Below are positions 6,352 through 45,900 of a DNA stretch of 64,000 bases, piece after piece. This stretch comes from Diadema setosum (taxonomy: Eukaryota; Echinodermata; Echinoidea; Diadematoida; Diadematidae). Below the pieces are notes generated by a model. That model saw only the letters and a list, made by a program, of their open reading frames with translations. It had not been told where the DNA came from and did not search any database. The stretch spans positions 18,258,403 to 18,322,402 of the forward strand of contig NC_092688.1 in NCBI RefSeq assembly GCF_964275005.1, in the 5' to 3' direction. A program made the translations under genes and the position numbers. Within the stretch, counting starts at the first letter, position 1. Every line of letters begins with the position of its first letter.

Positions 6352-7559
6352 TACTACTTGTCCGAACTCTGATGATGTCAGCTGCACCACATGGGGGGGG
6401 GGGGCCAAAAGTAAGATAATTGAAATCATCTGCTATATATTATGTATTAGCTGCTTTTCCATCCTAGATAAAGGTTGAACAACAACAACAACAATAACAA
6501 ACAAAGACAAAACAGGCCACAATATTGCAACAGAAAAAGAGTCTCCAGCATTCATTTTATATCAAACAATTGATATAATGATGTCCAAAATTACCATGTT
6601 CATGAATGTTTTACATCTAAAGGCTTCTAATAATCATTATGCTTCACTAGGTTCTCTAATTTTCTAGGCCATTCAAAGGATGCAAAAAGCATTATAATTA
6701 TTGTCATTTTCATCACTACTACTACTATCATTACTACTATTATTATCATCATGACATAATGTTGTAGCAAAGTGAGCCTTCATCAACCTACGGTACTTCC
6801 ATTATAAAGGTCATGAAAAAAGCTGATAAAATGTCCAATACTGTCAATATTGTATTCCCAGTTTTATATCAAGATATATCAATATGGTGATGTTTGAATA
6901 CTGATGTTGATATTAGATATATGTTAAATGACATCGTTTTCCATGTTTTATAATTTTGGCAACATGATGTCTCTCTGTTGTCATAATTAAATGTTTGTAT
7001 GTAATTGAATTGTATATCTTTTTTTTTGTAGAAAACATGTGAACAAAACAAATATCCTTGATATGGACAAAAAATGATCGCAATGAATTAAAGAATGAAA
7101 TGTGGGAACTTTGTATCTCTTGTAGTAGCTCTCAAATCTCTCCCTGTTATCTCTCATATCCTAGGTCTTTCTTTTTTTTTAAGTAGATCTGGGTATTAAG
7201 TTTATCATGGGCCTCTTGCCAGATTAAAAGGTGGAATAAGGCATCTTTTCACCTTGGAGGCCACCATGTGTGTCAGCTTCCATTAATGCAGTGTGCAAAT
7301 TAGGCTTCTTGCGGTGAGCTTTTCTAAGAACAATCCTTCAGTCACAGCCCCTGGACAAGATGAAACATCTCGCTATCTGCACACAGTTCTCGGGTGAAGG
7401 ATGGTGCCACATCATGTACACAGAGATACATGAATTCGAGACATTGGCGTGGTGTCAACCGAAGCTTGAACCCGCAACCTCTGGATCAGAGGTCGAGCAA
7501 TTTTGTAACGAGACCGGAATGATAATACAGCTGTGGGAAATTGTGTTACCAGTACCACG

Positions 7560-13242: not shown

Positions 13243-13568
13243 GGCCCGAATTCACGAAGGTGGTACAAATGAAACCATGGTTTAAACCATGGACAAAAAC
13301 CATGGAATGCCAAGTGTCGCATGCGATAGTTCGCTACGAAATCAGTCATTTCGTCGATGAAATGATTATTTTGTAAAGAAATGACAACATTTTGTAACTA
13401 AATGAACATTTCGTCCACGAAATGATAATTTCGTTAACGAAAAAGTCATTTTGTCGACGAAATGACCAATTTCGTAACGAAATATTCTGTTTGACACTTG
13501 GCGCTCCATGGTTTTTGTCCATGGTTTAGACCATGGTTTTGTTTGTACCACCTTCGTGAATTCGGGCC
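13243..13568. mobile_element. Palindromic MITE, GGCCCGAATTCACGAAGGTGG ends
   Basis: The left arm GCCCGAATTCACGAAGGTGG and its complement at the right end are near perfect, continuing through repeated CCATGG motifs. TCA on each side is a possible 3-bp target duplication. The interior contains about eight short repeats of the type TTCGT-n-ACGAAATGA, some inverted. No coding capacity. Confidence 0.85.
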
Positions 13569-28780: not shown

Positions 28781-31160
28781 GAAATCTTTTTGCATTGAAA
28801 ATTTTGACATTTTTACAGTCCCCAAACTGCCGTTTGTAACTATATTCTTCGCTTTGGAAATTAAGGGGGCGGGGGCGCACCGGGCGAAAACTGCTGGCAA
28901 TTACTGGCAGCAACATCAGGAGAATGGCATAGCGATTAAATGCGAGCGAGCGAAGCGATCGAGCTTGAAAATTTTGATATTTTACAGTCCCAAAACTGCC
29001 GTTTGTAGCTATATTTTTCGCTTTGGAAATTAAGGGGGGCGCACCGGGCGAAAACTGCTGACAATTACTGGCAGCAACATCAGGAGAATGGAATAATGAT
29101 TAAATGCGAGCGAGCGAAGCGAGCGAGCTTGAAAATGTTGACATTTTACAGTCCCAAAACTGCCGATTGAAGCTATATTTTTCGCTTTGGAAACTAAGGG
29201 GGGCGCACCGGGCGAAAACTGCTGGCAATTACTGGCAGCAACATCAGGAGAATGGAATAATGATTAAATGCGAGCGAGCGAAGAGAGCGAGTTTGAAAAT
29301 TTTGATATTCTACAGTCCCAAAACTGCCGTTTGTAGCTATATTTTTCGCTTTGGAAATTAAGGGGGGCGCATCTGGCGAAAACTGCTGGCAATTACTGGC
29401 AGCAACATCAGGAGAATGGAATAATGATTAAATGCGAGCGAGCGAAGCGATCGAGCTAGAAAATTTTGACATTTTACAATCCCGAAACTGCCGTTTGAAG
29501 CTATATTTTTCGCTTTGGAAATTAAGGGGGGCGCACGGGCTAAAACTGCTGGCAATTACTGGCAGCAACATCAGGAGAATGGAATAATGATTAAATGCGA
29601 GCGAGCGAAGCGATCGAGCTAGAAAATTTTGACATTTTACAATCCCCAAACTGCCGTTTGAAGCTATATTTTTCGCTTTGGAAATTAAGGGGGGGCGCAC
29701 GGGCTAAAACTGCTGGCAATTACTGGCAGCAACATCAGGAGAATGGAATAATGATTAAATGCGAGCGAGCGAAGAGAGGGAGCTTGAAAATTTTGACATT
29801 TTACAGTTCCCAAACTGCCGTTTGTAGCTATATTTTTCGCTTTGGAAATTAAGGGGACGCACGGGCGAAAACTACTGGCAATTACTGGCAGCAACATCAG
29901 GAGAATGGAATAATGATTAAATGCGAGCGAGCGAAGCGAGCGAGCTTGAAAATTTTGACATTACGGACAGTCCAAAAACTGCCGTTTGTAGCTATATTTT
30001 TCGCTTTGGAAATTAAGGGGGGCGCACCGGGCGAAAACTGCTGGCGATTACTGGCAGCAACATCAGGAGAATGGAATAATGATTAAATGCGAGCGAGCGA
30101 GGAGAGCGAGCTTGAAAATTTTGACATTTTACAATCCCCAAACTGCCGTTTGTAGCTATATTTTCGCTTTGGAAATAACCAAGGGGGCGCATCGGGCGAA
30201 AACTGCTGGCAATTACTGGCAGCAACCTCAGGAGAATGGAATAATGATTAAATGCGAGCGAGTGAAGCGAGCGAGCTTGAAAATGTTGACATTTTACAGT
30301 CCCAAAACTGCCGATTGAAGCTATATTTTTCGCTTTGGAAACTAAGGGGGGCGCACCGGGCGAAAACTGCTGGCAATTACTGGCAGCAACATCAGGAGAA
30401 TGGAATAATGATTAAATGCGAGCGAGCGAGGAGAGCGAGCTTGAAAATTTTGACATTTTACAATCCCCAAACTGCCGTTTGTAGCTATATTTTCGCTTTG
30501 GAAATTAAGGAGGCGCATCGGGCGAAAACTGCTGGCAATTACTGGCAGCAACCTCAGGAGAATGGAATAATGATTAAATGCGAGCGAGTGAAGCGAGCGA
30601 GCTTGAAAATGTTGACATTTTACAGTCCCAAAACTGCCGATTGAAGCTATATTTTTCGCTTTGGAAACTAAGGGGGGCGCACCGGGCGAAAACTGCTGGC
30701 AATTACTGGCAGCAACATCAGGAGAATGGAATAATGATTAAATGCGAGCGAGCGAGGAGAGCGAGCTTGAAAATTTTGACATTTTACAATCCCCAAACTG
30801 CCGTTTGTAGCTATATTTTCGCTTTGGAAATTAAGGAGGCGCATCGGGCGAAAACTGCTGGCAATTACCGGCAGCAACCTCAGGAGAATGGAATAATGAT
30901 TAAATGCGAGCGAGCGAAGCGAGCGAGCTTGAAAATTTTGACATTTTACAGTCCCAAAACTGCCGTTTGTAGATAAATTTTTCGCTTTGGAAATTAAGGG
31001 GGGCGCACTGGGCGCACCTGCTGTCAGTCACTGGCAGCAACATCAGGAGAATGGCATAGCGGTTAAATGCGAGCGAGCGAGCGGAGCGAGCGAGCTTGAA
31101 AATTTTGACATTTTACACTCCAAAAACTGCCGTTTGTAGCTATATTTTTCGCTTTTGAAA
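28780..31160. repeat. Satellite-like tandem array, 14 units of about 163 bp
   Basis: The block TAAATGCGAGCGAGCGAAG recurs at 28937, 29101, 29265, 29429, 29592, 29756, 29918, 30084, 30249, 30413, 30575, 30739, 30901 and 31064, i.e. every 162-166 bp. Each unit carries GAGCTTGAAAATTTTGACAT, AAACTGCCGTTTG, TTTTTCGCTTTGGAAATTAA, GGGGGCGCAC, GGCGAAAACTGCTGGCAAT and CAGCAACATCAGGAGAATGG. The period is not a multiple of three, so the short open frames seen in the units are incidental. Two adjacent 326-bp dimers at 30249-30574 and 30575-30900 are almost identical. Confidence 0.95.
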
Positions 31161-33195: not shown

Positions 33196-33235
33196 CGCGC
33201 GTATGGCAAGCCATATTGCTTTTTAAAAAGATTTT

Positions 33236-33356
33236 CTGATATCACGAATTCCCTTTCGTGATATCAAAAATTCGAATTTCTGATATCACAAATTCAATTT
33301 TTGATATCAAGAAATACATTTTGTGATATCACTAATTCCAATTTGTGATATCATTA
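33236..33356. repeat. Left TGATATCA array
   Basis: Five to six palindromic TGATATCA octamers spaced about 20-24 bp, separated by AATTCGAATT-like linkers. Mirror of the longer right array. Confidence 0.85.
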
Positions 33357-33359
33357 ATT

Positions 33360-34020
33360 TACATGGAATTTCAGCACATATCTTTCGCAAAGAAATGATT
33401 TGATTTCGAGCATTAGTTTTGCGCTGAAATTCAACCGTAAATTCTAGCGTTTGTTGAGCGCAGAAATACACAGGGAATTCGAGCTTTAGTTCAGTGCAGA
33501 AAACCAACGGGAATTTGAGCGTTAGTTGAGCGCAGAAATACATAGGGAATTCGAGCATTCGTTTTGCGCTGAAATTCAGCTGTGAATTCGAGCGTTAGTT
33601 GAGAGCAGAAATACACAAGGAATTCGAGCATTAGTTTTGCGCTGAAATTCAACTGTGAATTCGAGCGTTAGTTGAGCGCAGAAATACACAGGGAATTCGA
33701 GCATTAGATTTGCGCTGAAATTCAGTTGTGAATTCGAGCGTTAGTTCAGTGCAGAAATACACAGGGAATTCGAGCATTAGTTTTGCGCTGAAATTCAACT
33801 GTGAATTCGAGCGTTAGTTGAGCGCAGAAATACACAGGGAATTCGAGCATTAGTTTTGCGCTGAAATCCAACTGTGAATTCGAGCGTTAGTTGACCGCAG
33901 AAATACACAGGGAATTCGAGCTTTAGTTTTGCGCTGAAATTCAACTGTGAATTCGAGCGTTAGTTGAGCGCAGAAATACACTGTGAATTTGAGCATTAGT
34001 TTAGCGCAGATATTCCTTTG
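33360..34020. repeat. Left arm tandem array, 72-bp units
   Basis: About nine units, each made of two related halves: AATTCGAGCATTAGTTTTGC-GCTGAAATTCAACTGTG and AATTCGAGCGTTAGTTGAGC-GCAGAAATACACAGGG. Confidence 0.9.
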
Positions 34021-34811
34021 GAATTTCAGGTGTTATCTTTACATAGTACAGGCTGTATATAACGATAGTTACAAAAAAAAACCTAAATGAAGAGTTTTGG
34101 CAACTCGTCTTCATTTAAAGTGATTAGGAATTGGTTTTAAAAGAATCGATGAAAATAAATCGTTTAGCAACATATCTAAAATGCCATTATTTATATGTTG
34201 TCAATTGCTTCAAAGTCATTGTTATATTCTCTTTTTTTCCCTCCATTTCTCGCCACTGATTTGGCAGAGACTGGTTGACTTACAACTTTTGTTTGCGTTT
34301 CTCTTTACTCTGTCATGTGAAAGATACTCTCTCCCGACCTCCCCCTGTTACTTAATAAGAGAGATTTCTCATTGCGCAGATTAACAAAATTGAAGTCCTT
34401 CGTACCACTGCTTTTTTCCTACTACAAATTCTAACTGTTTGTTTGCCATGCGTACTGCTGCATAAACTCCTCATAAGATCTGGCTATCTTCACTCTTCTT
34501 GCTCTGGTCTGAAGACTTTTGGGCTTGTGCGTTCCAGTTTTGTTCTCCCCGGTTTTGGTTCTTGAATAAACTTGCCTATATGATTACACTTTAAATCATT
34601 TTACAAAATCATAAACATACTGGGGCAGGCAAACTGTACACCCAACACAATTGGTCTTAATGGATACACCCCTTTGTTCTGGAGGACTGATTTTGAGGAG
34701 TGAGAAAATGTCTTTAAAAGAAAAACGTTGCTTTATGTGACCACCAGCCGACACCAGTGGTGGACATTAAATTGGCAAGTTTACGACTCCCTCTCGCACC
34801 CCGCATGACTC

Positions 34812-34850
<39 letters not shown>

Positions 34851-35295
34851 CTCCGCTGCTGACATACACAGACCAGAGGGTTGATTGCCCTCGGTCGGTC
34901 CTCCGCAATACAAACACATAGTATATGCTTTTATAACACACATACACATACCACCACACATAATATCGATTTGGTGGAAGAGTCTACTGTAAAGGGGATT
35001 ACCACATGAAAAATGTATCATAATTAACAATAATGTATAGTAATAGATGACAATTTGAGGACCAAAACGTTGAATTAAATGTAAGCCCTAAGTGAACATA
35101 GTATCATTGAATTTATGATAACATGTTGCAAAACAATTGATTTGTATCAATAATTCATCGAATATACCTTGATGATCATTTACGGAATGATGGATGTGTA
35201 AATCTCTCATAATAATATAGTTATTGGTATTTTGAACATTGTTCTAAAAAAAGTTAGCAGTAGTATACCTTCCATCTGAATATCAGCTCAAAAGT
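34021..35295. other. Central spacer of the foldback element
   Basis: Single-copy sequence without recognisable coding. Contains a (CT)n microsatellite at 34817-34846. It may be captured host DNA or the residue of a degraded internal gene. Confidence 0.5.
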
Positions 35296-36095
35296 AATGT
35301 TCCAATTCCCTGTGTATTTCTGCGCTAAAAAAAAACACAACAAACAAAACCGCTCGAATTCACAGTTGAATTCCAGGGCAAAACTAACGCTCGAATTCCC
35401 TTTGTATTTCTGCGCTAAACTAATGCTCGAATTCACAGCGATTTTCTGCACTAAACTGACGCTAGAACTCCCTGTGTATTTCTGCGCTCAACTAACGTTC
35501 GAATTCACTTTGTATTTCTGCGCTAAACTAATGCTCGAATTCACAGCGATTTTCTGCACTGAACTAACGCTCGAAATCCCTGTGTATTTCTGCGCTCAAC
35601 TAACGCTCGAATTCACAGTTGAATTTCAGCGCAAAACTAATGTTCGAATTCACTTTGTATTTCTGCGCTCAACTAACGCTCGAATTCACAGGGATTTACT
35701 GCACTGAACTAACGCTCGAAATCCCTGTGTATTTCTGCGCTCAACTAACGCTCGAAATCACAGTTGAATTTCAGCGCAAAACTAACGCTCGAATTCACTT
35801 TGTATTTCTGCGCTCAACTAACGCTCGAATTCACAGGGATTTACTGCACTGAACTAACGCTCGAATTCCCTGTGTATTTCTACGCTCAACTAACGCTCGA
35901 ATTCACAGTTGATTTTCAGCGCAAAACTAACGCTCGAATTCACTTTGTATTTCTGCGCTCAACTAATGCTCGAATTCACAGGGATTTACTGCACTGAACT
36001 AACGCTCGAAATCCCCGTGTATTTCTGCGCTCAACTAACGCTCGAATTCACAGTTGAATTTCAGCGCAAAACTAACGCTCGAATTCCCTGTGAAT
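35296..36095. repeat. Right arm tandem array, inverted relative to left
   Basis: About eleven units, the complement of the left arm (TTCTGCGCTCAACTAACGCT-CGAATTCACAG and variants). Open frames of 77-136 codons across it are products of the unit length and are not genes. Confidence 0.9.
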
Positions 36096-36640
36096 TACTG
36101 ATATCACAAATTCGATTTTGTGATATCAATAATTCAATTCGTGATATCACAAAATGGAATTTGTGATATCAGAAATTCGCATTTGTGATATCACAAATAA
36201 GAATTCTTGATATCACAAATTGAAATTAGTGATATCACAAATTTATTTCGTGATATCACAAATTCGAATTTGTGATATCAAAAAATCATTTTGTGATATC
36301 ACGAATTACCATTGGTTTTTCACGTGAAACCTATTTTTGATATCAAAAATTCGAATTTCTGATATCACAAATTCATTTAGTGATATCTCAAATTGAATTT
36401 TAGATATCACAAATTCGAATTTCTGATATCACAAATTGATTTTGTGATATCAAAAATGGATTTTGTGATATCACAAATTCGATATCTTGATATCACAAAT
36501 TAAGTTCATGTGCTACACTTACGGGAATTTGTGATATCACAAATTTAATTCTTGATATCACAAATTGAATTCTTGATATCAAAAATTTGATTTTTTATAT
36601 CACAAAATGGAATTTGTGATATCAGAAATTAACTTTAAAT
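36096..36640. repeat. Right TGATATCA array
   Basis: More than 20 palindromic TGATATCA octamers at spacings of about 18-26 bp with linkers such as CAAATTCGAATTTG. Ends about 130 bp before the TMX2 start codon. Confidence 0.9.
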
Positions 36641-36665
36641 GTAAAAACGGCTTGCCATACGCGCG

Positions 36666-36767: not shown

Positions 36768-36938
36768 ATGAAAAGCACCGTCATTATGCGACAGATTATG
36801 CAATATAGGCACTATTTCAGTGCCTACCACATGTCGAATCTTATACTTTCGATTTCATTTTTGTTCGTGAGGCTGGTGAGGCCATTCTGTACCATATTTC
36901 CGGAGAATGAGGAGAGCAAAGAATGCCAGTTGTCGTGG
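36768..36938 (+). CDS. TMX2: TMX2 coding exon 1
   Basis: 57 codons starting MKSTVIMRQIMQYRHYFSAY and ending CQLSW before GTATGT; phase 0. It holds the first hydrophobic segment. The position right after a GC-rich patch supports this ATG, although the MRQI or MQYR methionines are alternatives. Confidence 0.8.
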
Positions 36939-39900
36939 GTATGTATGATTTAGTCCGACATATAAGGATCCGTGTATGGGGTTTTATCGTGTATCCTACA
37001 CGCGCATAAAGATAATAAGAATGTTGTAAAGTTACTTGTATTACTATGAATAAGGCTTTGCCTTTGTTAAAACAGACTTAAAACAGAGATAAAACGGGCT
37101 CAGAATACTACCCCAGGTAAGTTTCTTATTAAATAGTCTCTTTCCATATATTGCAAGCGAATTCCATATGGTAGAAGATAGATTTTGAGCCCTTCCGAGA
37201 ACTATGCTTTAGGCCTAATGCCTTTATTAAGTTTGAAAGAGCACAAAGCACAAAATGGCATCCACTGTCTGAAGCACCACACAACAAACCCTCATCCATT
37301 TGCTGAACAGGCTTTGATGAGAAGCACCGTAGAAGTAGAAGTTTGACTACAATGTAGATCTATGTCTACATTCTATGAGTATGATAGTTGATACTTTTGC
37401 CCTTACCCTTGGCCTGGGTGAGTTTAGATGCAGCCACGATTAACAATTGACAACTCGCCTTGAACAAATCATTATGTGTCATACACTTATATCGGCGCTA
37501 GTGTACTGTCACACCTGTACCTCCTTGTCAAATTATCTCCAAACATGCACAAACTCACCCTAGTTACAACGTATTCAGTAACCTAAATAATTGTATCTGA
37601 GCCTCGCTCTAAAAGTCGAATAGAAATTAGGTTTTAACACTTTTTCAAGTGTTGGAAAAGCTTGGATCGCTTGAAATGTTTCTCTGTACACAAGCAGTCG
37701 GCGCAGTACGAATGCGTTCAGTGCATGCAGTAAGGGTCGATCATTTGATCTGAATGTAGCGATCACAGCAGCTTTTCTATGGTGTCTTTGAAAAGCTAAA
37801 AAAAAAAAATTCCCCTTTTCCTCAACTAAGTCTTGCGGTAGTGGTTTAGCACGTGCATGTGTGCGTGCAGCCCCTTATATCTGTCTCTTTCTTTTCTGTC
37901 TTCTTTCATTTTCTGGTATTCCTAACTTTCCTTTCCCTTTCTTCCCTATTAATAATTTATTTGGGTTTTCCTCTTTTCTAACTTTCTAAATTTCCTATTC
38001 AATCTTACTTTCTGCCTAATTGTTCTTTGTTTCCTTCATGGGTTTTATCTTTCACTCCATCTACCGTTCCTTTCTTTCCTCTCCAATATCTCTTGCTTTT
38101 GTTTCATTTTGATGTATTCATTTCTTTATTTCATTTACAACCTGTACAATTCTTTCATCTTTGCTTTCATCCAGTTCTGATTCATGTCTCATTCTCTTAT
38201 TCTAACGAGTGCTTTTTTGTTTTCAATATTTATTTGTTTTTATGCCTCCGCCACGAAGTGGTGCCGGAGGCATTATGTTTTCGGGTTGTCCGTCCGTCCG
38301 TCCTTCCTTCCTTCCGTCCGTCCGTCCTTCCGTCCGTCCGTCCTTCCGTCCGTCCGTCCGTCCTTCCGTCCGTCCGTAATGAATTTTGTGGACAAGGTAA
38401 CTATCGAAACCTGTTGAGGTATCCTAATGAAACTTGGCATGTATGTGTATTAGGGGGTGAAGTTGTGCCTATCAACTTTTGGGTGCACATCTCAAGGTCA
38501 AAGGTCAAAAGGTCAAGGTCAAATACATAAAATTTCACTATTTCCAACATATCTATTGAATGCCTGAAGATATTTTCTTGAAACTTAGTGTATACATGTA
38601 TTACCCAATTAAGATTCTCTGGTGAAAGTTTGGGTCATGAGGTCAAAGGTCAAAAGGTCAGGGTCAAATACATAAAATTTCACTATTTCCACCATATCTA
38701 TTGAATGCCTGAAGAGATTTTCTTGAAACTTAGTGTATACATGTATTACCCAATTAAGATTCTCTGGTGAAAGTTTGGGTCATGAGGTCAAAGGTCAAAG
38801 GTCAAAAGGTCAGTGTCAAATACATAAAATTTCACTATTTCCACCATATCTATTGAATGCCTGAAGATATTTTCTTGAAACTTAGTGTATACATGTATTA
38901 CCCAATTAAGATTCTCTGGTGAAAGTTTGGGTCATGAGGTCAAAGGTCAAAAGTTCAAAAGGTCAAAAGGTCAAGTAAAAATATTAAAACTTTTTTTTTT
39001 TTCTCCGTACCTTGGAAAATTGTTCAAGGTATCTTCATGGAACATAGTATATACATGTACTGACTGGAAGTGATTATCTAGAGAATGTAGGGTTCATGGG
39101 GTCAAAGGTCAGGGGTCAAAGGTCAAGTGCAAGACTTCAAAATTTTACTATTACCCTCATATTTATGCAATGCCAGCAGGGTTATTTTTTTACACTTGGT
39201 GTATGCGTGTGTAACCTAATAGAAATTCTCTGGAAAGTTTTTTTTTTTTCTCTTTTTGCCTCAAAGGTCAAAAGGTCAAAGATCAAGTGAAAGTGCTTAA
39301 CTAACTTTTTCCTCCATATCTTGGAAGTGGCTCAAGTTACCTTGAAACTTAGTACATATTATGCATGTTCTACCTGAAAGTATTATCTTATGAATTTTAG
39401 GGTCAAGGGCCAGATGAAAATGGTAACAATTTACTTTTCAATTCAGAAATTGCACTTTTTCTCCACACCTGTACCTTGAAAATTACTCAATGCCTAAATG
39501 TATGAATGGGTCAAAGTCAAGTTAAAGTCCTTAAATCCCTAGATACATGCTCTCTTATTCATCCAATTAAACCTACGTCAAGGAAGGTGAACATTCAACA
39601 CATTTGTGACAAACTTGTCATTCCAATATTTTGCCAATTTTGTGAAAATGTAATCACACATTGTCCACATGTACTATCTAGACCTACTGGGAAAATCATG
39701 CATTATGGCGGAGGCATACCAGTCGCCAAAGCGACATTTCTAGTTTTGGTTCTGCTTTTCTTTACATACATATCCATCTCTCCCTTGCTTTCCTTTATAA
39801 TGCAAGTTTCTCTTCTCTATTTATTTCTATTATCTTTTGTTTTTATTTTGAATTTACTTTCTATTTTGTAAACCTTTTGTTTCATTATTTCCAGGTTTAC

Positions 39901-42900
39901 CTTTTTGGTATCTTTTCATTCATTTCCTCCCCCTTTTCCTACCTTTTCTCTTTATATTCTTTCACCCTTGCGATAACCATGTTTTTCCCAATCTTCTCTG
40001 ACACACACACACAAACACGAAAAACAACCCCAAACCTCAATCAGTTGCTACGGCAAGACATAGTACAAGGTGAGGGAAAGGTGGAAATACAGGTTTATCT
40101 TTTTAATAATACCATAGAACTTGCTATGATCACTATGAGATCACTACATTCAGGTCAATCGCAGCAGTGCTTACTGCCATACCGTGAACATGTTTTGTAT
40201 ACATTTTGTACCGTGCGCTGCGCCACCTGCTCCTGTGCAACACAGTTATCGCAAAGCAAACTACATATTGATAAAGCTAGCTGTGATCGACTTATTCTTG
40301 TAATTATTAAAGTGTCAAAACAGCGAAAATTTCATTTCTACTGGCCATGGGTGTCGCGCAGATGCAAATATTTGTGGTTGTTGGATATTTAGAGTGAGTT
40401 TGTGCATGTGTGGAGATCAATTGACAAGGAGGTGCAAAAGTACACTAGCCCCCATATATATCTATGTGCATGTTGCTCCCTCACTCCAATCCTCTTCCTC
40501 AGCTCAGCTGAGCTCATAGCCCTATCCTCATTCAAACACCAAGATTTGAGTTTACTTTATTCTAAAAGTTAAGCTTTTGTCTTGTAAACTTTCATGGCAT
40601 TTCTTGCAATGTGATGGAAAAATTTGAGTGAGGCCAAATTCACAAAAGCTTTATCATCAGCCACATTGCATTCATACTGTCTTATGTAGTGTGGTACACA
40701 GAGTTTGTGTCAAGATTAAAGGTCAACCATTTCCAGTTTTAAGCATGCAAAGCTTGAAAAGAGTTGTGCTGTGGTATTTTACAGCATGAATGTATTCTAC
40801 ATTTTTTAGTGGGCTGTGCATGGTACTGTATACGCCATATCCAATTTAACAAGTCTAATTTTTCGCGAGATGGGACTTCGTGAAAATTTTGCGAGTCGTT
40901 AAATTCGCAATTGTGGAATACAGCGCTGAACGAAAAAAAATGTACGCGTGCACGACACATTCATGTTGGGATGAGAGTTTATACTTTTAAATTCGCGAAT
41001 AGCACCCAACTCATGAAAATTAAAACCTTGCAAAATATTCGGCATATACAGTATGTGTTATTATGATCATTCATATTTATAGTTTTATCAATACTGCAGT
41101 AAGCAACTCTGCTGTCAAATGTCAACACAGCATCATGTTAAGACAGAGGAATTTTGAAAAGATTACTTATTTAATATTTTAACTGTGAGATAGAAAAGGC
41201 AATTTTACGTTCACTTTTGATACATACAGTTTTATTAACTGTAGTTCAAATTCAAATATATACATTTTGTGAGTATTCATCACTGCAGAAGTATTTTGTT
41301 TCTCGTGTTTTATTTAAATATTCATTTTCATTTCACTTTTGTTTTATGGAGAGTGCCACGAGTGCTACATTGTATACCATTGATATTTGATGCTATCTCT
41401 TGACGATTTACTGTAGATTTTCTGCACATTCATATTTTTGTATGTTAATAGATTCCTCATGACTAAGATGGTCTAGTGATGAATTTATTGTTTTATCTTC
41501 CACTTGTAGAATGAGAGCAACATACTTCTGTTCCTGGCATGCACCATTGCTGTCAAGAATCGTAAGAAGCCACCACTCAAGGAGCTCTTAACAAAGGTTT
41601 TCCTGTTCTGCAAAGTTGCAAATACACTCCTATTTGGGCTCACAGATCCACGACTGTCAATTTTGTTTGTTGCAGTTGCTGTAGGTAAGAAATTCATCCT
41701 TTTTTGCTGCATTCTATCTGAATATTACCTATAATTCTATTTGAATATTATATAATATATGACAAGGCTCTATGAAAAGCTAAATTGTTTTGATGAGGGA
41801 TAAATTTGTTTGAAATTTAGCTTGAACAGTAAGCCGTGTCAAATAATGCTGAAAGACTGAATCAGCATGTTGACACAGTATGGTGTTAATTTGACTTCCT
41901 TTAAAGATGGCCCTTCCCTTTTGCATTCCTTCCCAAATAGCACAGAACATGATATATTCCACCAGAATGACAAGACTATTGTAAATCTATAACGTTCCTG
42001 TGATATTTGAAGGTTGTTAGCCGTTAAAATTCAAATAATGCACCAAACGCTCACCGTAACGTATTCTGTGTACTAGGCACAGCTGCATACATTAATCCTC
42101 CTGTGGTTGTAATATGATACTTAAACTTCGAACAACAGATATATGCATGTTAAAGCTGTCAGAAAAGAAGAATTCACTAGCTTCTCTTACTTTGTTATCA
42201 ATGGCAAATAACAACACATCACTTACATGAATTACATGTACAACTAAGTGCATCACACAGGTCTGTAAAACTAGACTAGTATTTAGATTTGTAATTTTTG
42301 CGAAGTTCGCAAAAATTATTCAAATCTTAATGGTCGATTTAACTAAACAAATAAAGACCCTCTTGAGTTCAAAATTTACAGGAGGTTGCCAAATAGTGTT
42401 TTCTTCAATACCTAAGTGTTCTCACCAATTTTTCACAAATTTGCATACAAAAGGGATTGGCTGTCTTTAAAGTAAGCTACAAGACTGGTTCTACCTTTGA
42501 CATACATATATGCTTGTTATTTGCTTAGAATCTACTGATGTAATGTCAGTAGATTTCTTTATAAATCTCAAAACATCATTTGTAACCCCCTTCAAAAACA
42601 ATATCATGTAGGTTTACATTGATTTGTCACTATGTGAGTTTTATCTGCAGAAACCTCCAATACATGTAATTTCTTAGATTGCAGTAAAGTTTGTACTTTC
42701 ATGTCAGGGGGAGCGTACATATGGATTGCTAGTTTTTGTTTTGTTTTGTTTTGTTTTGTTTTGTTTTGTTTTGTTTTGTTTTGTTTTGTTTTGTTTTGTT
42801 CTTTTTCAAATGTATACCGCCAGAATGTCGTCAATGTTATTAAACATTAAGTACAATTCAATGTACAACTTGAACATATTCATACATCTCAGCAAGTACT

Positions 42901-45900
42901 ATGAGTATATAATTATAATGATCAGGAGTATAGTCTGTTTTGTGAAGATTAACACTCAGTTGTTTTGCTGTTGCATTTCAGGTTGCATGGTTGTGTTTCC
43001 AGAACCTGCATATGTTGGACCCCAGAACATTGTGTATTTCAAAGGAGATTCTCTGGAGGTAATTCTCAATTTCCAGGTCTTCCTGAGTAGACAGTGTTTT
43101 GTGAAGTGAAGCATCCTTGTGTTATTTGTTGTTAAACCAGGTCTCTGATAAGGTCAGTGCACTCTACATCACACATTCCTCCAGTGCCTATTACTTGTGT
43201 TTTGCTGCATTACGTGAATTACCGGTACACAAATTTGATGTGCTGTACTTTTTATGTGACACAAGCATTGTAAAATCATAACATCTAACCATTAATTGCC
43301 TTTACATTTTTTTTTTTTGTGTGTGTGGATTGTCTAGCTCAGAGTTTTTGATGAATGTATAAAGTATCTTCAAGTTACAAAGTTTTGATGAGTGAAGCCT
43401 TTTTTTTTTTTTTTTTTTTTACTCCTTGAAGTTCATTATCAATCATTACATCTTATAAAATAAGAGTATGTTTCATTTGTATTTGAACAGTGAATTTCAA
43501 GGGATGATGAAGAACATTGTTGGTTGAGTTGAGTATCTGTTTGTTTTATATTACAGAAAGAAAAATCACCAACTTTTTATTACCACAGTTCATGATTTCT
43601 TAATGTGAAATTATGGACATATATAAGTTGATATAGAGCAATCACTTCATTCAAAGTGTAACAATCCATTCACCACAGTGGTCTCCAAATATGTTTTGAA
43701 ATACAGTGTATTTACCCTCCAGGGTTTGGCAATGGGTTGAAGCTAGTATTTTGCACTCATGTGAGAGAAGGCATATTGTACATGAATCATATATACCGAG
43801 TATTTGAAGCATTTGTAATTTTTCTGTTTCTTGTTTCCTAAATTTACTATCAGGAGGAACTTAAGGCCAACCCAAGGACCACCTGGGTCGTAGAATTCAT
43901 GGCAACATGGTCTGCTAGCTGCCACACGTTTGCACCAACATTTGCCAAGCTGTCCATGGAGTAAGTGTGCTTTCAAAAACAGTTATCCTGCAAGTGTATG
44001 AATGCAAGTCAAGTGCATAGAAATTATGGAATTTTTTGTCTTACATCACGTGTAATTTGTTTGTTTGTGGTACATGTACTTGTTAATTAGACATAAAACC
44101 AGAGTAATTTCAAGCATTTGTGACATACTCTGTATGATATTTTTCAACAGGTTTTATGAGTAAGATGCTTTCATGCCAAATTGAAAAGTGTCTTCTGAAA
44201 CTAGCAGTAATTTTTGTCTTTTGTATCTTTGTATTGTGCTTGCAGGTACTCACATAATCATCTCAAATTTGGAAAGTTTGATGTGGGCAGATATCCTGAA
44301 ATTGCTGAAATGTGAGTATTGTGGCAGGATTTATTTAGTTACACACTCAGACATCTGCTATTCCAGCGATTGATATGGAAAGACATCAGTCAAGCCCAAA
44401 GGTCTGAATTCTTGGAAAATACTTATTCTAGTTGCGGACTACGGGCATGGGTTTCAAATCAATTCTTCCACCTGTGGTTGAATTGAAATTCTTGCTTTGT
44501 CTGTATGGGGCAAACTTAACTCAACAGTGTGATCCTCAAGCTTTGTTATACATTGCACTCCCATTATAACGAACATGGTTATAACGAAATTCTGGTTATA
44601 ACGAACTTAAAATTCAGGTCACAGCATTATCCGCTCAATGTCTTATATTGTTTACTTGTTCGGTTTTGACGAAATTTCAATATAACAAAAGAAACCTGCC
44701 GGTTCCTTAGGACTTTATTATAATGGGAGTCCACTGAAGTAGCTTTTGCTAATGCTCCTGAACTTACTACCCTGGCATGCCAGTGCCATGAGCCAAGAAA
44801 GAAGTTATTAACTGCTTTGAAGAGACAGACCATGATATTAAACCAGTCTTCATTTGTCTGTGCATCTGAAACCAAGAGATGATCCTTGAACCTCATGAAG
44901 GAAACTTGTTAGTGTAGCAGGACATTATGACTTTATATTCTCTTTACACGTCAGTATTGAGATGAGTGCAGAAGATCTGTCTTTAAAATGTGTTCTTGTA
45001 AATTTGTAGTATAACAAACGTTGGTTCCGCTGATGTCACCCCAGCATGCAGAATAAGTATTTTCTTTCATAAACTATATTTGAAGAGTTTTATTGTAAAA
45101 CGAGCTAACTCCAGTCTTGTTGAGATATTTGTGATGAAAGCTGCTAAAAAACAAAGAAAATAATAAGAAAATACAGGATAATTTTAATCATAACTTCTAG
45201 AACATTCCTTGTTATGTCACAAGTGAGGTATTACTTGATGGACTTTGAAATGTTTAAAAATGGTGAAATGGGAGAGCAGTTTAGTTATGAAATGTTATTT
45301 GACTCCTACATTTTGTCGCTGTTTCAGTTTCCAGGTAGACAGTTCCTCAATATCCAAGCAGCTTCCAACCATAGTCTTGTTTCAAGGAGGCAAGGAGATC
45401 ATGAGAAAGCCAGGCAGGAACAGCAGTGGACAGACAGTGAAGTACCAGTTTACCAAGGTTGGTTGACCACTAGATAAAGGACAACAGTCACTCCTCACAG
45501 GCATGAAGAAGAAAATAGGATGCATTAGGCCTAATATCATTTTGAATATGATGCATCCTCCCATGAAAAAAACAAAAACAAAAAACAAACAAACACACTT
45601 CATGCTTTGAATTTGCAAGTGAAGTACCAGTGAAGTATCAGTTGACCAAGGTCAGTTAAACACTAGATATTGGACAATAGTCACTTATTACAGTCATGGA
45701 AAATGAAACGGGCTGCAGTAGGCCTAATTTCATTTTGAATATGATGCATCCCCCCCCCAAAAAAAAAACAAAACAAAACAAAACAAAACAAACAAATAAA
45801 CAAACACTTCATACTTTGAATTTGTGAATGGCTATGATGTGAATTCAAAGGGAATCTTCAAAGTGATGATAATATGCTATCTTATTGACCAAAAGAGAGT

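Follow-up and report, generated by a model that had tools for sequence, protein, structure and literature searches.

A foldback-like transposon family with palindrome-array ends in the sea urchin Diadema setosum and its probable placement in the IS3EU/GingerRoot group

The element upstream of TMX2

The 64,000-nucleotide stretch of the Diadema setosum genome analyzed here (RefSeq assembly GCF_964275005.1, contig NC_092688.1, positions 18,258,403 to 18,322,402, forward strand; hereafter "the window") contains, upstream of the gene TMX2, a 3,458-bp element at 33202-36659. The element is flanked on each side by the same 6-bp target-site duplication (TSD), CGCGCG (33196-33201 and 36660-36665). It belongs to a family of dozens of copies that is mobile in this genome, and we regard it as quite probably an IS3EU/GingerRoot-type DNA transposon that moves by cut-and-paste, is nonautonomous, and has a foldback-like layout.

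The element is bounded by 11-bp terminal inverted repeats (TIRs), TATGGCAAGCC at 33202-33212 on the plus strand and its exact inverted copy, GGCTTGCCATA, at 36649-36659 on the minus strand. The initial annotation of this DNA had described perfect 17-bp TIRs. The inverted repeat that it recognized, CGCGCGTATGGCAAGCC, is indeed exact and has a single occurrence on each strand, at window positions 33196 and 36649, but six of its positions are the TSD: because CGCGCG is its own reverse complement, it mimics additional TIR sequence beside the 11-bp repeat.

Inward of the TIRs lie the two nested layers of arrays that the same annotation had called inverted, a term that holds for the inner layer. The outer layer comprises ∼22-bp palindromic units with the core TGATATCA, 6 on the left (33237-33353) and 23 on the right (36099-36630; ≤1 mismatch in the core); the core occurs 26 times in the element and once elsewhere in the window. 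The Tandem Repeats Finder (TRF) consensus of the right unit, GAATTTGTGATATCACAAATTC, is a perfect palindrome, and 29 individual 22-mers of the outer arrays have a mean of 0.76 paired positions, compared to 0.50 when that core is given random flanks. Since these units are self-palindromic, "inverted" says nothing extra about them, and only the inner arrays are true inverted arms. The inner arrays are satellite-like and share a ∼36-bp monomer, which is arranged in pairs on the left (33405-34015, plus strand; period 73 by autocorrelation and by TRF, with 8.4 copies and 89% matches, close to the ∼72 bp first annotated) and in fours on the right (35351-36100, minus strand; periods 36 and 145). The longest ungapped inverted pair between the left and right arms is 265 nt long, with 86% complementarity, and four other copies examined have the same autocorrelation peaks (73 at 0.71 to 0.84 and 145 at 0.72 to 0.96).

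The arms enclose a centre of 1.23 kb (34041-35270) with no transposase frame, in agreement with the ∼1.3 kb first reported. The longest stop-to-stop frame in the element, centre and arms included, has 147 amino acids (aa) and lies within repeats; there was no Pfam match for four frames in and beside the element and no Rfam match in the window. The element owes its foldback-like architecture to long inverted arms, internally repetitive, on either side of a middle that lacks a transposase. The ratio of observed to expected CpG is ∼1.5 to 1.6 in the arrays (33196-34040 and 35271-36665), whereas the centre has 0.61 and the window 0.58, which is what young or unmethylated arrays would be expected to show.

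The arms are asymmetric, as initially noted: outer units number 23 on the right and 6 on the left, approximately a 4-fold difference (counting TGATATCA with ≤1 mismatch). Most of this asymmetry is a trait of the family rather than of this copy, because 13 other full copies show it too. The left array has 11 units in 11 of these 13 copies (10 and 9 in the remaining two), and the right array has 19 to 25 units in all 13. The window copy is additionally ∼5 left outer units short.

Genomic copies, insertion sites, and surroundings

The genome (912,680,840 bases in 102 contigs) was searched with patterns of the family ends, using reversed patterns as controls. CGNNCG followed by the TIR TATGGCAAGCC yielded 76 exact ends (control, 0), so that other copies with the same ends do exist, and a narrow pattern of the TIR followed by the first palindrome gave 52 exact matches and a wider one 105 (reversed control, 0). 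The 76 ends form 29 convergent pairs of <12 kb, and the target duplications sought among copies proved identical over 6 bp in 28 of these pairs; shuffled matching gave a mean of 2.7 and a maximum of 10 in 10,000 shuffles. As the search pattern itself demands CGNNCG, the independent evidence is the agreement of the NN letters, not of the CG letters. CGNNCG was not required for the copies that were read directly (≤1 mismatch in a 12-base TIR word), and 14 of these 17 have equal duplications, three of them off the motif (AGGGCG, AGGGCG, and CGCCCA). The CGNNCG target rule is therefore strong but not absolute. In addition, copy L036 sits in the centre of another copy with CGACCG on both flanks, and the window centre holds the unfilled counterpart of that site, with CGACCG once (34892-34897, CGGTCG/CGACCG). 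Exact dispersed ends, duplications, and an empty site together demonstrate transposition, confirming the element and the mobility of its family.

A query with the centre found 44 matches of 85 to 100% identity, some of them fragments, among the best 40 of 116 candidates scored; the family copy number taken from it is a lower bound. Of 20 fetched regions, 17 contain at least part of the centre and three (L039, L040, and L049) are array only, at 302 to 484 bp. Twelve intact centres are 94 to 99.7% identical to one another, from which the family looks young, and this apparent youth suits tests for segregating insertions.

The common form of the family is ∼3.3 to 4.4 kb long and has its arrays in two nested layers. 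Two small copies that have matching duplications, L040 (302 bp; CGCGCG) and a copy in L024 (531 bp; CGCTCG, 20 units), match the outer arrays only, with no match to the inner arrays or centre. The TIR and palindromes are thus the constant part, and the satellite arms and centre are dispensable, since these small copies hold TIRs and outer arrays alone. In every one of the 17 read copies, the first palindrome (≤1 mismatch) begins at base 36 counted from the left end; counted from the right end, 15 copies share this position, and the exceptions are L044 (base 37) and L046 (base 596). The same TIR-palindrome spacing was found at 95 of 100 listed TIR ends bearing TGATATCA, of 105 such ends genome-wide. 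Exact TGATATCA lies within reach at 64 of 73 checkable TIR ends; five of the nine others were read, and four have GATATC-like arrays of 22, 11, 6, and 3 units (3 in L064), while L061 has practically none. At L050 (C4:21575100-21584300, near position 6665), two family ends stand head to head with one base between the TIRs, which suggests that one copy inserted at, or was joined to, the end of another.

The inner unit, searched as a 38-mer with ≤1 mismatch, occurs 411 times in the genome (control, 0). The first 100 places listed form 42 clusters, of which 34 lie ≤6 kb from a listed TIR and eight do not; this bears, for the inner unit, on the initial proposal that arrays without TIRs would refute the reading. 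The TIR list includes one-mismatch ends only in part and omits some listed places, of which those rechecked by eye are on other contigs or far off. All 13 clusters with both orientations run plus and then minus. Among the 42 clusters, the longest span of one-way places inside one arm is 510 bp, and one cluster joining two copies is longer.

Sequence outside the copies is rich in CpG. Over 30 fetched ends, CpG declines from 5.10 per 100 bp at 6 to 106 bp to 2.42 at 1.1 to 1.5 kb (window mean, 2.13); TGATATCA is present in two of the 30 flanks (L007 and L016). Counting one end for each of 26 insertions, i.e., omitting four ends (L011, L016, L021, and L029) that belong to an insertion already represented, CpG is 4.69 per 100 bp at 6 to 206 bp. 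The control values were 3.30 (95%, 2.50 to 4.15) at 37 CGNNCG sites elsewhere in the window, excluding the element and nearby satellite, and 2.63 at 15 thinned sites, and fractions of 0.0002 and 0.0000, respectively, of 5,000 resamples reached 4.69. These data, for which one 64-kb window is the control, are suggestive of a preference for insertion into CpG-dense DNA. If this preference is true, a CGNNCG target with CpG-dense flanks would describe a promoter-seeking element, of relevance to copies that alter gene regulation.

The gene downstream of the element is confirmed as TMX2 by collinear matches of predicted exons. The predicted first coding exon (36768-36941, plus strand) matches 9kcm_T (TMX2) in phmmer with an E value of 0.073, which is weak alone, and is followed by exons at 41510-41680 (E value, 1.6e-7) and 45239-45463 (2dj0; E value, 1.7e-8). 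Motif patterns for TMX2 had found nothing before the exon matches identified the gene. The predicted ATG at 36768 is 108 bp past the last base of the element, in line with the ∼100 bp given initially, and an effect of the element on TMX2 transcription is possible. Elsewhere in the window, a tandem array with a 164-bp unit (28795-31160; ∼14 copies, 91% matches) lies 2 kb upstream of the element, and a short array of ∼20-bp palindrome-like units, ACGAAATGATCATTTCGTA, at 13336-13483 is similar in style to the outer arrays and may be another array-bearing element. An exon at 62429-62842 matches the tubulin-binding region of CPAP (PF25779; E value, 2.3e-4; 21.8 bits against a cutoff of 22), so that a CENPJ/CPAP-like gene probably follows TMX2.

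Transposase search and a second family with an integrase gene

A long, transposase-encoding copy, which the initial annotation proposed to seek, was not found among the copies read, and the frames listed for L031 to L033, L042, L043, and L052 to L054 contain no autonomous partner. Seven frames were compared with Pfam; a reverse transcriptase in L052 (E value, 2.2e-33) was the only domain, and the other six had none. Among genome-wide candidates, rve_3 gave at least 126 matches (best 150 of 809 candidates scored) and the IS481 models gave at least 66 (best 66 of 1,554 scored); judged by their long frames, both sets are apparently mostly integrases of long terminal repeat (LTR) elements and were set aside. 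The one rve+OTU gene fetched, which we take to be Ginger1-like, runs off the end of its 4.4-kb stretch (L051), where there is no TIR of the window family. Two carriers of rva_4 that are 99% identical over 6.6 kb (L057 and L058) were likewise rejected, with no window-family TIR in 14.6 kb.

The Pfam domain rva_4 (PF24764) has 23 matches in this genome and none in 14 control genomes. One multicopy rva_4 group has a left border, TACGAAAGACCATTAG, beside a palindrome array (TAATCTGTTTAAACAGATTA) and an integrase open reading frame. This 16-mer is exact at 26 places, most of them forming convergent pairs separated by 0.7 to 27 kb; only exact ends were used, because at one mismatch the reversed control (102) exceeded the hits (33). 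Equal 6-bp duplications were found in 8 of 11 pairs with flanks read (the C20 pair by eye from L085 and L056), and the three pairs without them include the rva_4-bearing C1 span. Matches to rva_4 lie inside five TACGAAAGACCATTAG-bounded spans, four of which have matching duplications. This second family has TA ends, and each of the three copies read (L055, L056, and L084) carries palindrome arrays; one of these copies (L084, 725 bp) consists of TIRs and palindromes only. The integrase match of L055 has an in-frame stop in the search scoring, and this copy may be inactive. In a relative elsewhere (L057), an IS3-type HTH_21 domain (23.1 bits, below the Pfam cutoff of 28.1) precedes rva_4, and the gene shares 30% identity with the second-family integrase over 145 aligned positions. 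The TA-ended, palindrome-array type of end is therefore accompanied in this genome by an IS3-like integrase, and the second family is the best in-genome model for the window family.

Four second-family spans are unusually arranged or long. Those at C4:24605797-24617920 (12.1 kb; CAAATG) and C3:13623032-13636803 (13.8 kb; ATTTTG), both with 6-bp duplications, each contain two rva_4 matches in opposite orientation; judged from their ends and matches, they look like giant foldbacks in which each arm carries a transposase gene. Those at C5:39655919-39678442 (22.5 kb; TAATGG) and C20:4916016-4943058 (27 kb; GATTGT) have second-family TIRs and matching 6-bp duplications and possibly contain nested insertions or cargo.

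Classification, alternatives, and related systems

In the available passages, IS3EU elements always end in TA..TA and usually have 6-bp TSDs (PMC10045372), and those of rust fungi have TAYGG..CCRTA ends and 6-bp TSDs (PMC12730594). The window element has TA..TA termini, its TATGG..CCATA ends fall within the printed motif, and its family makes 6-bp duplications, as seen in the paired ends (28 of 29), the read copies (14 of 17), and the empty site. Several observations weigh against the assignment to IS3EU. The copies read revealed no transposase enclosed by TATGGCAAGCC TIRs, and even the closest of the 23 rva_4 places is 73 kb away from any listed TIR of the family. The longest frames in 21 copies or part-copies have 293 aa (L041), 173 aa, and 147 aa, the latter two in repeats, with the rest shorter; the L041 frame appears endonuclease-like by eye only, having had no Pfam scan, and long copies carry other insertions, such as the reverse transcriptase of L052. 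Three of the 17 read copies (L037, L039, and L049) have no matching duplication. In the second family, the duplications read are not CGNNCG, and the 26 exact ends stand without a chance level for exact matches. Equating rva_4 with the IS3EU transposase is an inference from IS3-like domains, ends, and duplications. The alpha-kinase that is present in fungal TET+ IS3EU families is absent from the elements, its three genome matches all being on C8. Finally, transposase binding of the palindromes is postulated by analogy with Galileo.

One alternative is that the element is nonautonomous but belongs to another group with 6-bp duplications (e.g., Dada or hAT6) or to a superfamily not yet described. 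A missing partner transposase with the same TIR and a CGNNCG target unlike those of the second family are compatible with such an origin; nevertheless, we consider it unlikely, given the exact fit of TATGG..CCATA to the printed IS3EU motif and the IS3-like integrase gene inside the array-bearing second family. A true Foldback/Galileo-type element, with long TIRs made of tandem repeats and belonging to the Mutator or P superfamily, would share the layout of repetitive inverted arms around a noncoding middle, and passages of PMC3688188 place transposase-binding sites in the internal tandem repeats of Galileo. However, the TSDs here are 6 bp, compared to 8 to 10 bp for Tetris (PMC4079207, in part), the ends are TA, and the outer arrays do not form one long inverted arm but are built from self-palindromic units. 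The kinship with FB/Galileo that the initial annotation drew from this resemblance is thus very improbable and was rejected on duplication length; the layout alone is foldback-like. Least credible, to the point of being negligible, is a chance or host structure, i.e., an immobile dispersed satellite or a TMX2 promoter element. The 108 bp to the predicted TMX2 ATG and the eight of 42 listed satellite clusters away from any listed TIR would fit it, but the longest one-way span within an arm is 510 bp, and dispersed copies with exact ends, duplications, and an empty site rule out such an origin.

The data show that copies move as units delimited by TATGGCAAGCC TIRs and that CGNNCG is the usual target, whose 6 bp become duplicated. 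As an IS3EU/GingerRoot-type transposon, the element could function as follows. An IS3-like transposase with a helix-turn-helix domain, supplied in trans, would recognize the TIR, and the same putative enzyme may bind the palindromic ∼22-bp units as a dimer. With its first unit at a fixed distance from the end, the array would multiply putative binding sites. The inner satellite-like arms and centre would be passengers, which unequal exchange or slippage would have amplified in a progenitor before they were copied. More tentatively, and with rather more doubt than confidence, we suggest that animal IS3EU-type transposons may have a conserved, unnoticed end design, in which a short TIR is followed by a fixed-spacing array of transposase-bound palindromes that repeatedly becomes foldback arms, to which the window family would add CGNNCG targeting and hence insertion in CpG-dense, promoter-like DNA.

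The window family and IS3EU/GingerRoot share TA..TA ends and 6-bp duplications, and this genome contains integrase genes with IS3-like domains. The window family differs in being nonautonomous, with an 11-bp TIR followed by palindrome arrays, inner satellite arms, and a strong CGNNCG target. The open-access literature passages found describe no foldback or palindrome-array architecture in IS3EU, although Repbase, which lay outside the search, may catalogue the family. In the parts available, IS3EU is named in the oyster satellite study only in a table of satellite similarities (PMC8268682), and PMC12730594, in its passage on palindromes, deals with TET/JBP gene borders.

Miniature inverted-repeat transposable elements (MITEs) are resembled by the protein-less 302- and 531-bp copies with TIRs and duplications, but not by the common ∼3.3- to 4.4-kb form. 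Galileo has a P-type THAP transposase and 7-bp duplications, which the 6 bp found here do not match, and FB has 9-bp duplications. Sea urchin TU elements have modular inverted arms with short tandem repeats and 8-bp duplications; they are likened to the window family by this description, not by sequence comparison. Long repetitive arms are shared with Galileo, where they contain several transposase-binding sites (PMC3688188, in part). According to passages of PMC4079207, which also cites sea urchin foldbacks, foldback architecture is in most cases classed with Mutator, Galileo of the P superfamily being one of the exceptions. Tetris of Drosophila virilis and other Foldback/Mutator elements share tandem-repeat arms, a noncoding middle, and the lack of a known autonomous copy; Tetris repeats, however, have seeded kilobase satellite arrays (same passages), none of which was seen among the 42 clusters listed here. 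In the window family, foldback architecture is instead paired with IS3EU ends and duplications, and the integrase genes of the second family make it testable whether the palindrome arrays are transposase-binding arrays.

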